Shown here: positions 23,762 through 32,702 of the stretch, piece by piece
Layout: each line of letters begins with the position of its first letter
Numbering within the stretch: the stretch's first letter is position 1
NCBI RefSeq assembly: GCF_009674605.1
Contig: NZ_WKJO01000001.1
Span: 248,001-312,000 of the forward strand
DNA: 64,000 nt
Source of the DNA: Haloferax litoreum
GTDB taxonomy: Archaea > Halobacteriota > Halobacteria > Halobacteriales > Haloferacaceae
Direction of reading: 5' to 3'
Translations under genes and position numbers: made by a program
Notes under the pieces: model-generated
What the model saw: the letters and a program-made list of their open reading frames with translations, nothing else
Databases searched by the model: none
Told to the model about the DNA's origin: nothing

Positions 23762-24181
23762 TCAGCAGAAAGCGTCGAGTCCCGTTTGCTCTGGGTCGTC
23801 TGTTGACTCGTGAGTGAGCAACGCCTGCTTCAAATCGACACCACCAGCAGCGGAGAACCCACCGAGTGAGTCTGCCCCGACGACGCGATGACACGGGACG
23901 ACCAGTGGAACCGGATTCCGACCGCACGCCTGTCCAACTGCGACTGGGTGACTGTCGAGTTCGGCCGCAATCTCGCCGTAGGTCCGCGTCTCGCCGTAGG
24001 GAATCGCCAGCATCGCCTTCATGACTTCGCCGGTGAACGTGTCTGGAATCTGGACCTCGGCGTCGAACGTCTGTCGCTCACCCCGTTCGTACTCCGCAAG
24101 TTGCGCCCGTAGGTCGTCTAGTGCGCCCCCGATACGTTCCTCGTCGAGTTCCACGTCGAATCCCCACATCGTGACGTGCAT
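23762..24181 (-). CDS. ogt: methylated-DNA-[protein]-cysteine S-methyltransferase
   Basis: 139 residues. It removes the methyl group from O6-methylguanine by suicide transfer to Cys97 in the motif PCHRV. The DNA-binding part is present (PYGETRTYGEIAAELDSHPVAVGQA, then GRNP) and FSAAGG follows. The N-terminal domain is short, so this is the compact form. A start at the internal ATG (MWGFDV) four codons later is possible. It lies 99 bases downstream of ADH synthase on the same strand and may be transcribed with it. Compare the MGMT-like gene at 28123, which lacks the cysteine. Confidence 0.92.
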   Translation of the reverse strand: MHVTMWGFDVELDEERIGGALDDLRAQLAEYERGERQTFDAEVQIPDTFTGEVMKAMLAIPYGETRTYGEIAAELDSHPVAVGQACGRNPVPLVVPCHRVVGADSLGGFSAAGGVDLKQALLTHESTDDPEQTGLDAFC

Positions 24182-25939: not shown

Positions 25940-27201
25940 CACAGGCCCCCCGTGAATTCGTCCATGTTCGGCGCAATGTCGATATCACGCTCGTACGTCT
26001 CTTCGATGGCCGATTCGAGGTCCTTGTCGCCGCGTCCGGAGACGTTGACGACGACGAACTCACCGAGGCCGTCGTGTTCACCCGTCGCGTCCGGGCCTGC
26101 CACGCGTTCGAGGTAGCCGAAGGCGTGTGCCGTCTCCAGCGCAGGGATGATTCCCTCCATCTGTGAGAGGCGATGGAACGCAGTCAAGGCGTCGTCGTCG
26201 CCGACGTTGACCGCCGTGACACGACCGGTATCGACGAGGTAGGCGAGTTCCGGGCCGACACCGGCGTAGTCGAGGCCGGACGAGATGGAGTGCGACTCCA
26301 TAATCTGACCGTCGTGGTCCTGTAAGATGGTGGTACGAGCGCCGTGCAGGATGCCCTCGCTCCCGGTCGTGAGGGACGCGGAGTTGGGGGCGACGCCGGC
26401 GTCTTCGTCGACGTCGAGCGTCGACCCGCCCGCCTCGACGGCGTAGAGCGCAGTCTCGTCGTCGTCGACGAACTCGGCGAACGCACCCATCGTGTTCGAC
26501 CCGCCGCCGGCGCACGCGAGGACCGAGTCAGGGAGTCGACCCATCTTCTCGCGGGCCTGTGTCCGCGCTTCCTCGGAGATGACCGACTGGAAATCACGAA
26601 CCATACTCGGGAACGGGTGGGGGCCGACGACGGACCCGATGACGTAGTGGGTGTCTTCGACGTTCGTCGCCCAGTCGCGCATCGTCTCCGAGATGGCCTC
26701 TTTGAGCGTCCCGCGACCGACGGTCACCGGATTGACCTCCGCGCCGTTGAGCTTCATCCGGAAGACGTTGGGGCGCTGGCGGTTGATGTCGCGTTTGCCC
26801 ATGTAGATTTCACAGGGCATGTCGAGGTGCGCGCACGCCATCGCCGTCGCCGTCCCGTGCTGGCCGGCACCCGTCTCGGCGATGATGCGGTCTTTCCCCA
26901 TGTACTTCGCGAGCAAGACCTGCCCGAGGGCGTTGTTGAGTTTGTGGGCCCCGCCGTGGACGAGGTCCTCGCGCTTGAGGTACACCTCACGGTCGTACCG
27001 GTCAGAGAGACGGTCTGCACGCTGGAGCGGCGTGGGTCGCCCGCCGAACTCCCGCAGTCGCGTGCGGAACTCGTCCATGAACCCGTCTTCGTTGCCCAGG
27101 ACGTACCGTTCGTACGCGTCTTCCAGTTCCTCGATGGCCGGCATCAGTGCCTCGGGAACGTACTGTCCGCCGTAGTCGCCGAATTTTCCGTCTGTACTCA
27201 T
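25939..27201 (-). CDS. trpB: tryptophan synthase beta subunit
   Basis: 420 residues. The pyridoxal-phosphate enzyme that condenses indole with serine to give tryptophan. PLP lysine Lys87 is in GGAHKLNN, the phosphate-binding glycine run is [12 protein letters not shown], and substrate elements [12 protein letters not shown] and [12 protein letters not shown] are present. It is the regular TrpB1 type, matching the adjacent trpA. The first codons overlap the trpC stop by four bases (ATGA) and the stop overlaps trpA, so trpC-trpB-trpA is one tight operon. Confidence 0.97.
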
Positions 27202-27959
27202 GTCGGTGTGGAGAGGGTGTGTGTGTTCTGTCGCACGTCGCCGTCCATGATGGCCGTCCCGACGAGGAGTGCATCGGCTCCCGCCTCGCGCATCCGTCGA
27301 ACGTCGTCTGTCGTCTTCACGCCACTCTCTGCGACGAGGAGTACGTCGTCGGGGACTTCGGGAGCGAGTGCTTCGAACGTTCCGAGGTCGACGTCGAGTC
27401 TGCCGAGGTCACGGTTGTTGATTCCGACGATATCCGCACCCGCCGCGAGGGCCGCGACGAGTTCGTCCCGGGTGTGGACTTCGACGAGGGGTTGGAACCC
27501 GCGTTCGCGGGCCGCTTCGACGAGGTCTGAGAGGTCCTCATCGACGAACCGAGCGATGAGAAGTACGAGGTCAGATTCGACTGTATCGAGTTGTTCCTCG
27601 CGCACGACGAAGTCCTTCCGGAGGACTGGAACGTCCACCGCGTCACGAATACGGCGAAGCGAGTCGGTCGTCCCCCCAAAGTGGTCGGGTTCGGTGAGGA
27701 CAGACAGGGCTGTCGCCCCGCCGGTGACCATCTCGCGGGCCAGTTCGACCGGGTCGTCGTCGCGGACACCCTCGGTCGTCGGACTGGTCGGTTTTACCTC
27801 GGCGATGACCGGGATTCGACCGTCGGCCACCGTCTGCTCGACGGCGTCGGGGAACGACCGCGCATCGACCGAGACGCGCGTGTCGCCGCCTGGTCGCTCC
27901 CGTGCGGCGTCTACGATGGCACGCACTTCGGGAGCTAATTCGTCTCCGCTAGCGTTCAT
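27198..27959 (-). CDS. trpC: indole-3-glycerol-phosphate synthase
   Basis: 253 residues. It closes the indole ring in tryptophan biosynthesis. Conserved elements are [58 protein letters not shown] and the end [30 protein letters not shown]. It is the first gene of the leftward trpCBA-aroA' operon; tryptophan-regulated trpCBA is known in H. volcanii. Two TGTACA boxes lie between its TATA element and start codon. trpD, E, F and G are not in this window, consistent with the split trp loci of haloarchaea. Confidence 0.96.
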
Positions 27960-27962
27960 TGA

Positions 27963-27994
27963 TGTACACTAACGGACGCATCTGTACATAAGAC
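27963..27994 (-). promoter_or_regulatory. trpCBA promoter with two TGTACA operator-like boxes
   Basis: On the minus strand a TATA-like CTTATG (about 27989-27994) lies 30 bases before the trpC ATG. TGTACA, itself a palindrome, occurs at 27983-27988, touching the TATA element, and again at 27963-27968, over the expected transcription start, exactly 20 bases apart. TGTACA is the published TRP-box consensus of TrpY in Methanothermobacter. A repressor bound here would block initiation. Role in this organism is inferred. Confidence 0.55.
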
Positions 27995-28122: not shown

Positions 28123-28578
28123 ATGGACGTCTCTGGAATCTACGCTCGCGAATCGCCGGTGCTGGACCGAGTGGTACAGGTCGGCGTCGTCAGTGGGAAA
28201 CTCATCAGTGTCTCGTTCCCGGACGAAATCCCCGACGACGCCGAACACGACAACGCACATCTGGATGCGGTTCTCGACGCGATAGACGGAGCGGAGGTGG
28301 ACCTCTCCGGGATTCCAATCGGCCTCACTGTCCCCACGGACCAGCGACGGGTGCTCGAAGCAGTCCGAAACGCCCCCCGAGGCGAGACCATCGACCTCGG
28401 ACTCCTCGTTCGGATGGCCGGATTAGACCCCGAAGACGACGAGTCGAAACAGACGGCCCGGCGGGCACTCGCGGCGAATCCGATTCCCGTCGTCATCCCC
28501 GACCACCGCATTCGAGATGGCCCGAGTGCCGCCCCCAACGACGTTGCCGACGCACTCCGCCGCGCAGAAGGACTCTAA
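28123..28578 (+). CDS. MGMT/Ogt-like protein lacking the acceptor cysteine
   Basis: 151 residues. The C-terminal half aligns with the DNA-binding/active domain of O6-alkylguanine transferases: RGET, then a helix, then NPIPVVIPDHRI, matching NPVPLVVPCHRV in the ogt at 23762. The alkyl-accepting Cys is Asp127; His128 and Arg129 remain. The segment before NP reads ALAA, so the arginine found there in relatives is also absent. The N-terminal about 65 residues form a different small beta domain. It cannot do standard Cys-based repair. Alkyltransferase-like (ATL) proteins that flag lesions for excision repair also lack this Cys, though usually with Trp. Likely a lesion- or DNA-binding protein. Confidence 0.75.
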   Translation: MDVSGIYARESPVLDRVVQVGVVSGKLISVSFPDEIPDDAEHDNAHLDAVLDAIDGAEVDLSGIPIGLTVPTDQRRVLEAVRNAPRGETIDLGLLVRMAGLDPEDDESKQTARRALAANPIPVVIPDHRIRDGPSAAPNDVADALRRAEGL

Positions 28579-29899: not shown

Positions 29900-31981
29900 T
29901 TACTGCGGGCTGGGGCTCGAGGGGCCGACACCCTTGCCCTTGTTGAGGGCCGAGCCAGTGATGCTCTTGAGACGGTCGACGAGCGAATCCTTCTCGGGTT
30001 CGCCTTCGAGGGCGACTTCGAGAACCTCGCTGATGTGCGAGACGGGGATGATTTCGATCATCTCCTTGTACTCGTCTTCGATCATCACGTCCTGCTCGTT
30101 GGCGGCAGGGATGATGACCGTGTCACAGCCAGCCTTCGCGGCGGCTTCGATTTTGTGGGTGACACCGCCGACGGGAAGCACGTCACCGCGCACCGACAGC
30201 GAACCGGTCATGGCGACCGACTGGTCGATGGGGATGTCTTCCAGCGCGGAGATGACGGCGGTCGCGACCGTAATGGACGCAGAGTCACCGTCGACACCTT
30301 GCTGGCCGGTCTGGACGAACTGCACGTGCACGTCCATCTCGGAGAGGTCCTGGTTAGAGAACTTCTTGATGATGGCCGAGACGTTCTGGACGGACTCTTC
30401 GGCCATCTCCTTGAGTTGGCCCGTCGCGATGACGCGACCCGGACCCTGCGACGGCGTGACTTCTGCCATCACGGGGAGCATGATACCGGAGTCCTCGCCC
30501 ATGACGGCGAGACCGTTGACGCGGCCGGTGACGAACCCGTCGTTGACCGAGAGTTCGTAGTCCTTGCGGCGCTGGATGTACTGGTCGGCAATCTGCTGCT
30601 CGATGGAGCGCGCACGGCGCTTGGCCTGCAGCACGTGGTCACGGGTGGTGAACTCCGCGTTCTCGCCGCGGGCGATGTCGCCTGCGACGCGGACCAGTCC
30701 ACCGAGGTTACGGAATTCGAGGGTCAGGTGACCCTTGCGTCCGGCACGCCGACGAGCTTCGAGGATGACCTCCTCGATTGCCTCTTCGGTGAAGTGCGGG
30801 AGACGACCGTCGTTCGAGACTTCCTGCGCCACGAAGCGTGCGTACTTGCGGCGCATCTCGGGGGAGTCCTCGATGGTGTCGTCCATGTACACCTCGTACC
30901 CGTACCCTTTGATACGGGAACGGAGTGCAGGGTGCATGTTCTCCATCGCGTCGAGGTTACCCGCCGCAATCATGATGAAGTCGGTCGGGACGGGTTCGGT
31001 CTGGACCATCGCACCCGAGGAACGCTCGGACTGGCCGGTGATGCCGAACTCGCCTTCCTGAATCGCCGTCATCAGGTGCTGCTGACTGCGCACGTCGAGG
31101 GTGTTTATCTCGTCGATGAACAGGACACCCTTGTTGGCCTTGTGGATGGCACCGGGTTCCACACGGTCGTGGCTCGGCGTCTCCATCCCACCGGACTGGA
31201 AGGGGTCGTGACGCACGTCACCGAGCAGAGCACCCGCGTGGGCACCGGTCGCGTCCTGGAACGGCGCGGCCTTCTGGTCGGCGTTGTTCACGATGAGGTT
31301 CGGAACCATCGCGTCGCTGCCGCGGGAACCATAGCGGAATGCAAGATAGATGATACCCGCAGCGAGGATACCCAGGAGGACCTGCTGAGCGATGATGAGG
31401 GAGTAGCCCAGCACGACTGCGATGATGATCCACATGAGGAACGAGCGCATCTGGTTGCGCTTGCGTGCCTCTTCTTTGTGGGCCTCGACAATCTGGTCAC
31501 CCTTGCCCGCGGGGACAGTGCGGACCTTCGGGGCGTTGCCGTCGTCGGGGTTGTGGTAGACGAGAACGTCCTGTAACTCTTCACGGGGAAGGAGTTCAGA
31601 CATCGCCTTCGCGAGCATGGACTTCCCCGTCCCCGGGGAGCCAATCATCATGACGTGGCGGCGCTGTTTGGCCGCCTTCATGATGACGTCGCGGGCGTGT
31701 TCCTGTCCGATGACCTGGTCAACGAGGCGGTCTGGGACAGAAATCTCTTCGGAGGTATCTATCTGGAGTCCCCCGAGCAGGTCGTCTTCGTCCACGTCGT
31801 CGGCCACGTCGGCCTCGATCTCGACGTCACTCCCGAGGTCGTCGATAGTCTTCTTATCGACCTCTTCGGCCTCCTCGCGCTGGAGACCCGACCCGTCGTC
31901 GATATCCCCGTCAAACGGGGTCTCGGCGGGCGAGTCCTCCTGCTCCGGGAGGCTGTCGTCGGTATTCGTATCGTTACTCAT
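29900..31981 (-). CDS. lonB: archaeal membrane-bound ATP-dependent Lon protease
   Basis: 693 residues from the ATG at 31981 (MSNDTNTDDSLPEQ). A very acidic N-terminus is followed by an AAA+ domain with Walker A GSPGTGKS (114-121). Two membrane helices at about 181-197 and 201-215 (FLMWIIIAVVLGYSLII, VLLGILAAGIIYLAF) are inserted in the AAA domain and anchor the hexamer to the inner face of the membrane; FIDEINTLD is Walker B. The C-terminal protease domain has the Ser-Lys dyad Ser567 (GDSAS) and Lys610 (GGVTHK), 43 residues apart as in other Lon proteins. In H. volcanii LonB is essential and affects carotenoid synthesis. Confidence 0.96.
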   Translation of the reverse strand: MSNDTNTDDSLPEQEDSPAETPFDGDIDDGSGLQREEAEEVDKKTIDDLGSDVEIEADVADDVDEDDLLGGLQIDTSEEISVPDRLVDQVIGQEHARDVIMKAAKQRRHVMMIGSPGTGKSMLAKAMSELLPREELQDVLVYHNPDDGNAPKVRTVPAGKGDQIVEAHKEEARKRNQMRSFLMWIIIAVVLGYSLIIAQQVLLGILAAGIIYLAFRYGSRGSDAMVPNLIVNNADQKAAPFQDATGAHAGALLGDVRHDPFQSGGMETPSHDRVEPGAIHKANKGVLFIDEINTLDVRSQQHLMTAIQEGEFGITGQSERSSGAMVQTEPVPTDFIMIAAGNLDAMENMHPALRSRIKGYGYEVYMDDTIEDSPEMRRKYARFVAQEVSNDGRLPHFTEEAIEEVILEARRRAGRKGHLTLEFRNLGGLVRVAGDIARGENAEFTTRDHVLQAKRRARSIEQQIADQYIQRRKDYELSVNDGFVTGRVNGLAVMGEDSGIMLPVMAEVTPSQGPGRVIATGQLKEMAEESVQNVSAIIKKFSNQDLSEMDVHVQFVQTGQQGVDGDSASITVATAVISALEDIPIDQSVAMTGSLSVRGDVLPVGGVTHKIEAAAKAGCDTVIIPAANEQDVMIEDEYKEMIEIIPVSHISEVLEVALEGEPEKDSLVDRLKSITGSALNKGKGVGPSSPSPQ

Positions 31982-32020
31982 AGAACTGTCGTCGCTACTT
32001 CTAATGTAGGCCCTGCGCCT

Positions 32021-32028
32021 GATATACT
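32021..32028 (-). promoter_or_regulatory. TATA box for lonB
   Basis: Read on the minus strand, AGTATATC preceded by GAGAA. Transcription would start near 31998 with a leader of about 17 bases before the ATG at 31981. Confidence 0.45.
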
Positions 32029-32117
32029 TTCTCCCCGGTTGCATCGTGTGCACCTTGCCGTATCGTCGGGTTTCGACGCCCCTACCACCAGAATACCGGA
32101 TTCACGTCGACTCGGCG

Positions 32118-32150: not shown

Positions 32151-32702
32151 ATGCGGGGGTTCTACATCGGCCGTTTCCAACCGTACCACAACGGCCACCA
32201 CAGAATGGTCGAAGAGATTGCCTCCGAGGTCGACGAACTCGTCCTCGGTATCGGGTCCGCCGGCGACTCGCACTCGCCGCGGAACCCGTTCACGGCAGGC
32301 GAGCGAATCATGATGGTCAACAAGGCCGTCTCGGATTTCGACATCACGACGTACGCGGTTCCCATCGAGGACCTCGACCGGAACTCTGTCTGGGTCAGCC
32401 ACGTCCAATCGATGTCGCCGGCGTTCGAAGTCGCCTACTCGAACAACCCACTCGTCATCCAACTGTTCAAAGAGGCGGGCGTCGAAGTTCGACAGTCGCC
32501 CATGTTCAACCGCGACGTGTTGGAGGGAACCGAAGTCCGCCAGCGGATGATAGAAGACCGCGATTGGGAGTCGCTCGTTCCCGACGAAGTCGCCGACGTT
32601 GTCCACGAAATCGGTGGTATCGAACGCATCCAGCACATCACCGACACCGACCGCTCCGAACGTCCGCGAACCGGCGGCCAAGACGACCCGAATCCCTGTT
32701 GA
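32151..32702 (+). CDS. nadM: nicotinamide-nucleotide adenylyltransferase
   Basis: 183 residues. It makes NAD from NMN and ATP. The nucleotidyltransferase signature GRFQPYHNGHH is at 7-17, followed by GSAGDSHSPRNPFTAGERIMM and the C-terminal MFNRDVLEGTEVRQRM (ISGT-like motif). Length matches archaeal NadM (about 170-180) with a short acidic tail. It is the first gene of a three-gene operon; the next start is one base after its stop. Confidence 0.94.
   Translation: MRGFYIGRFQPYHNGHHRMVEEIASEVDELVLGIGSAGDSHSPRNPFTAGERIMMVNKAVSDFDITTYAVPIEDLDRNSVWVSHVQSMSPAFEVAYSNNPLVIQLFKEAGVEVRQSPMFNRDVLEGTEVRQRMIEDRDWESLVPDEVADVVHEIGGIERIQHITDTDRSERPRTGGQDDPNPC

Follow-up and report, generated by a model that had tools for sequence, protein, structure and literature searches.

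The alkyltransferases of the AGT/Ogt type carry their alkyl-acceptor Cys in a PCHR motif, and the archaeal ones (S. solfataricus OGT, 4zye; M. jannaschii AGT, 2g7h; the nadM-linked Ogts of the Halobacteriota) are the described proteins to which the gene studied here can best be compared. Another described group, the ATLs (S. pombe Atl1, 3gva; V. parahaemolyticus ATL, 2kif; E. coli ATL), shares with it the C-terminal fold of the AGTs and the lack of an acceptor Cys. In these proteins, the Tyr and the Arg finger of the AGTs are still there, and the N-terminal domain and the Asn hinge are missing (PMC10779285). In this work, we focus on a gene of Haloferax litoreum in which the acceptor Cys is an Asp, and on its homologues throughout the Halobacteria. 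In the open-licence literature, we found no description of a Cys-less AGT pseudoenzyme spread throughout the haloarchaea, and the words methylguanine, ogt and MGMT do not occur in a review of replication and repair in H. volcanii. The gene seems to have taken up a new role and to be neither a working nor a damage-sensing repair protein: what is novel is the use, made of a known fold with a known ancestry.

The window, by which we mean the whole stretch of 64,000 nucleotides that was analysed, carries this gene at 28123..28578 on the + strand. The open reading frame starts with ATG and encodes a protein of 151 aa that contains ALAANPIPVVIPDHRIRD, in which PDHR (residues 126-129; 28498..28509, + strand) is found where AGT/Ogt proteins have PCHR. 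The codon of Asp127, GAC at 28501-28503, thus replaces that of the acceptor Cys, just as a preliminary description made from the sequence had read it. The MGMT fold proposed at the same time is borne out as well. Indeed, the protein scores 28.2 bits against PF01035 over residues 74-130, for a cut-off of 27 bits for profile matches, and this assignment is not due to chance, since 59 of the 59 aligned homologues match the same profile. The AF2 model (pLDDT 95.1) leads to the same family: its best Foldseek matches in the PDB are 4zyh, 8aes and 4zye, with TM 0.73-0.76 over the full length, and the 38 matches at E<=0.001 are all AGTs or AGT-derived tags, the ATLs of the PDB matching weakly (TM about 0.4). 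The model of a deep-branching Cys form (pLDDT 94.5) is closer still to the AGTs, with TM 0.82 to 4zye. Residues 1-60 (28123..28302, + strand), which are predicted to form three strands and a helix, had been taken for a domain unlike that of Ogt and fused in front. This does not stand: the full-length superposition on AGTs and an hmmsearch profile match to the Sulfolobus OGT (SsOGT) spanning residues 26-151 rule out the fusion with a foreign domain, and on the predicted structure it is settled that the N-terminal domain is that of an ordinary Ogt.

In a protein search, 390 of the 391 Halobacteria genomes and every one of the 86 genera proved to have a homologue; the single genome without one (G339) is 88% complete. 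Loci for the sequence comparison were picked to cover as many genera as possible. At the site of the former Cys, 83 of the 87 distinct crown sequences have Asp, 2 have Ser and 2 have Thr, and none has a Cys. The question of whether Asp is fixed across haloarchaea, raised by the preliminary description, is thus answered positively for the crown, and a family made mostly of Cys forms is not what we see; with its AGT fold kept and its Asp fixed in the crown, the protein is the distinct Cys-less type that had been suspected. Two copies depart from the common pattern in other ways: one (L125, in G316) is split over two frames, by a frameshift or a sequencing error, and in another (L127, in G130) the motif reads GDHR in place of PDHR, the same genome having a canonical Ogt. 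The deep-branching forms differ from the crown. The motif is still PCHR in family f5 (G021) and in one genus of family f11 (G285), and it is PSHR in the other f11 genus (L062 in G382, L063 in G217 and L066 in G391); in all these deep forms, the Tyr of the pocket is retained and the active-site loop is as long as in Ogts. No other PF01035 gene turned up in their genomes; as several assemblies of these families are incomplete, this is secure only for the more complete of them (G021, 98% complete; G217, 92%).

The genome of the window has only two PF01035 matches, the PDHR gene and a Cys-type Ogt at 23762..24181 on the - strand (92 bits), which is the normal ogt already noticed nearby. From it, the preliminary description had concluded that the PDHR protein is not the cell's only repair protein; this holds in the window genome but not throughout the crown. 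Indeed, in a census of 56 crown genomes selected for diversity, the canonical Cys-type Ogt is patchy, with 21 genomes having it and 35 lacking it. In those 35, the PDHR-type protein is the sole PF01035 member, so these archaea appear to be without a Cys-type alkyltransferase of the family. The canonical haloarchaeal Ogt of the window has a Val rather than an Arg at the Arg-finger position, and a short N-terminus.

The residues on which alkyl transfer depends can be followed by comparing the 87 crown sequences with 19 related Cys-type Ogts of the phylum (human numbering). The base-rotating Tyr114 is present in 19/19 Ogts and in none of the crown sequences, which have V, L, I or another residue there. 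The Arg finger, Arg128, is an Arg in 18/19 Ogts and falls at an unconserved position in the crown. The residue before Asn-Pro is K, R or H in 18/19 Ogts and never basic in the 87 crown sequences; it is Ala118 in the window protein, so the Arg reported missing there is missing indeed. The spacing from HR to Glu is 18-19 residues in the crown versus 23 in the deep forms and mostly 23 in the outgroup, which makes the loop 4-5 residues shorter. The G-x-[YF] of the active-site loop is absent, the loop columns being gapped in all crown sequences, and the shortened former loop (residues 131-138; 28513..28536, + strand) has the crown consensus RDGPSAAP. Other residues are kept: Asn137, Pro140, His146, Arg147 and Glu172 are found in 87/87 crown sequences and are also invariant in the Ogts, the Asn, His, Arg and Glu making up the buried core. 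Asn119 of the window protein (28477..28479, + strand) corresponds to Asn137, the AGT Asn hinge, and Glu149 (28567..28569, + strand) to Glu172; His128 and Arg129 of the PDHR motif are invariant.

Variability is also distributed differently. Compared on sets of 19 sequences, whose mean identity is 0.50 for the crown and 0.42 for the Ogts, it reaches 1.71 bits in the recognition helix of the crown versus 1.17 in that of the Ogts, and 1.18 versus 2.21 bits in the N-terminal sheet, with the PDHR segment being about equal (0.66 versus 0.57). The former DNA-recognition helix corresponds to residues 106-117 of the window protein (28438..28473, + strand) and comes after an acidic turn. The mean charge of the recognition segment is -3.8 in the crown, +3.0 in the outgroup Ogts and -0.8 in the canonical haloarchaeal Ogts; it is also -3.8 in the deep Cys/Ser forms, so that acidity alone is no proof of lost DNA binding and is, as a sign of it, suggestive only. 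The crown has fixed residues of its own, among them G5, A8, R9, G21, P33, T69, T72, D102, D127, P138 and R146, which could be structural or halophilic adaptations. Across Haloferax, dN/dS is 0.16-0.26, meaning purifying selection, and together with the class-wide conservation this rules out a fresh mutation or a pseudogene.

The origin of the gene can be read from its tree and from its neighbours. In the tree, crown and deep forms together make one clade (support 100/100), within which the crown sequences group together (100/100) at the end of a long stem (0.86), and the canonical haloarchaeal Ogts form a separate clade (100/98). The state of the former Cys residue changes five times over the whole tree. 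The crown copies lie, in most genomes examined, between trpCBA and a CPBP-lonB-nadM block, or have kept one of these flanks. In the window, the flanking genes are trpC (27198..27959, - strand), the divergent neighbour in most crown loci, lonB, a protease gene with a GTG start in the listed frame (29900..32053, - strand), and nadM (32151..32702, + strand), both of the latter being conserved neighbours. In H. volcanii, where lonB is HVO_0783 and nadM is HVO_0782 (PMC4343526; PMC8305020), the orthologue is expected close to these two genes. The Cys/Ser copies of f11 adjoin nadM, with lonB also present in 3 of 4 contigs. Outside the class, full-length Cys-type Ogts adjoin nadM at six loci (L132-L135, L139 and L146), and others are found with lonB and a SAM-hydrolase-type gene at three (L136, L143 and L144). 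In many other Halobacteriota, a Cys-type ogt is linked to nadM or lonB, which makes this an old gene neighbourhood. Because it forms a clade with the deep Cys/Ser forms and shares the nadM/lonB locus, the window gene is, by tree and gene order, the ancestral archaeal ogt at its own locus, transformed in the stem haloarchaea, and the Cys-type Ogt near it is of a different, patchy lineage. A recent duplication of the latter is ruled out by both tree and locus.

We think it probable, though well short of certain, that this ancestral ogt became a single-copy and near-universally kept pseudoenzyme, which would bind a partner or serve as an adaptor, without catalysis, by means of the remodelled face of its former active site. 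The gene linked to nadM and lonB would have been converted in the haloarchaeal stem, with the presumed loss of both alkyl transfer and the AGT-style flipping of O6-alkylguanine. Asp127 (or the Ser or Thr that can replace it) would probably be of structural use, opening the short helical turn of PDHR next to His128 and Glu149, either as an N-cap or as a charge replacement for the former thiolate. N-capping is suggested by the helical turn predicted at residues 127-129 and by the D/S/T pattern; this restriction fits an N-cap as well as an oxygen nucleophile, and the N-cap is the simpler of the two. Binding may involve the former active-site face and the N-terminal domain, in which the crown has fixed GIYAR, Gly21, PTDQR and RDGPSAAP. 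Indeed, the constraint now bears on the N-terminal domain and the former active site rather than on the recognition helix, and this shift points to a binding function for that face. The partner could be a protein, a small ligand or a nucleic acid; our search for an operon partner or a binding partner of the window gene returned none.

The first alternative, which the preliminary description leaned towards, is that the protein acts like an ATL: it would bind lesions, O6-alkylguanine or others, leave them unrepaired and pass them to excision repair, by means of a recognition surface of a haloarchaeal type. The loss of the Cys with the AGT fold kept goes in this direction, and so does the sole presence of the PDHR protein in 35/56 crown genomes, where an ATL would make sense. 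An Arg located one helical turn past the finger is also fairly conserved (73/87), and the Ser forms of f11 retain the pocket. However, replacement of the Cys is the sole ATL feature that the family presents, and by Asp, Ser or Thr rather than by Trp. The Tyr and the Arg finger are gone, the N-terminal domain and the Asn hinge are there, and the active-site loop has been shortened; the recognition helix is less constrained than in Ogts, and the PDB ATLs are much weaker structural matches than the AGTs. Membership of the ATL class is thus rejected, the family being the opposite of it on the N-terminal domain, the Tyr, the Arg finger and the Asn hinge. This comparison of residues and domains lowers the chance of an ATL-like action too, which we judge unlikely. 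The f11 Ser forms, whose pocket is still present, are better candidates for such an action than the window family.

A second alternative starts from the neighbourhood, and would make of the winged-helix part, freed from repair, a regulator of the divergent trpCBA that binds TGTACA repeats at the trpC promoter. In 56 collected crown loci, of which 15 are from Haloferax, trpC is divergent and adjacent, and TGTACA is found by trpC in 49 of these 56 versus 0.8 expected from shuffles. The window genome contains no exact match to TGTACA-N14-TGTACA other than the site at 27961-27990, and the deep Cys/Ser clades have neither the trpC adjacency nor the motif. However, TGTACA remains by trpC where the gene is elsewhere (L171, L173, L174, L177, L180 and L181), it never occurs in the half nearer the window gene (0/26), and haloarchaea have homologues of TrpY, a known type of trp repressor (PMC6737238). 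Since the motif is found by trpC without the gene and TrpY homologues exist, TGTACA is not specific to the window protein. Furthermore, the recognition helix is poorly conserved, and the adjacency to trpC can also be explained by a general conservation of gene order. The presence of trp genes speaks neither for nor against such a role, trpC being found in 69/70 genomes. A role of the window protein in trp regulation thus seems to us distinctly improbable. The repeat at 27961-27990, which most of the crown haloarchaea examined have conserved next to trpC, is likely a trp operator, possibly that of a TrpY homologue.

Catalysis of a new kind would be the third alternative. A triad of [Asp/Ser/Thr], His and Glu would form an ester by nucleophilic attack and let His and Glu hydrolyse it, allowing turnover dealkylation or some other hydrolysis, in which case a suicide protein would have become a catalyst. 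The 87 crown sequences admit only the oxygen nucleophiles D, S and T, even though the one-step neighbours of GAC encode A, E, G, H, N, V and Y, and neither the His nor the Glu of the AGT network varies. Yet a helix N-cap would show D, S and T just as well, no more than 4 of the 87 sequences depart from Asp, so that the restriction rests on few events (the five changes of the tree), and the base pocket has largely been removed. This makes the triad very unlikely, and we would give even less credit to an AGT-fold turnover enzyme whose substrate would be different from a flipped O6-alkylguanine, or more exposed than it. Finally, a decaying relic retained by chance beside essential genes is hardly credible: several catalytic residues are lost and one copy is split, but the gene is kept in all genomes save one, including in loci whose neighbours have changed, under purifying selection and with new crown-specific residues fixed.

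A near-universal gene of the Halobacteria, assigned to the alkyltransferase family by PF01035 and probably coding for a neofunctionalised pseudoenzyme, lacks what an alkyltransferase requires. With its living intermediates at a conserved locus, from Cys through Ser with an intact pocket to a pocketless Asp, it offers a clean case of a DNA-repair enzyme repurposed. With the archaeal Ogt/AGT proteins, the window family has in common the whole fold including the N-terminal domain, the Asn hinge, PxHR, the C-terminal Glu and the nadM/lonB locus; it differs from them by the change of Cys to Asp (or Ser/Thr), the loss of the Tyr and Arg finger, the shorter loop, and a recognition segment that is acidic and variable. 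From the canonical haloarchaeal Ogt, which is of the same PF01035 family and in the same genome, it is set apart by the tree and by its near-universality, the canonical Ogt being patchy, with a short N-terminus and PCHR, Tyr and loop intact. Compared with the ATLs, which usually have a Trp in place of the Cys, it is the reverse: the Tyr and the Arg finger that they keep it has lost, and the N-terminal domain and Asn hinge that they lack it has kept.
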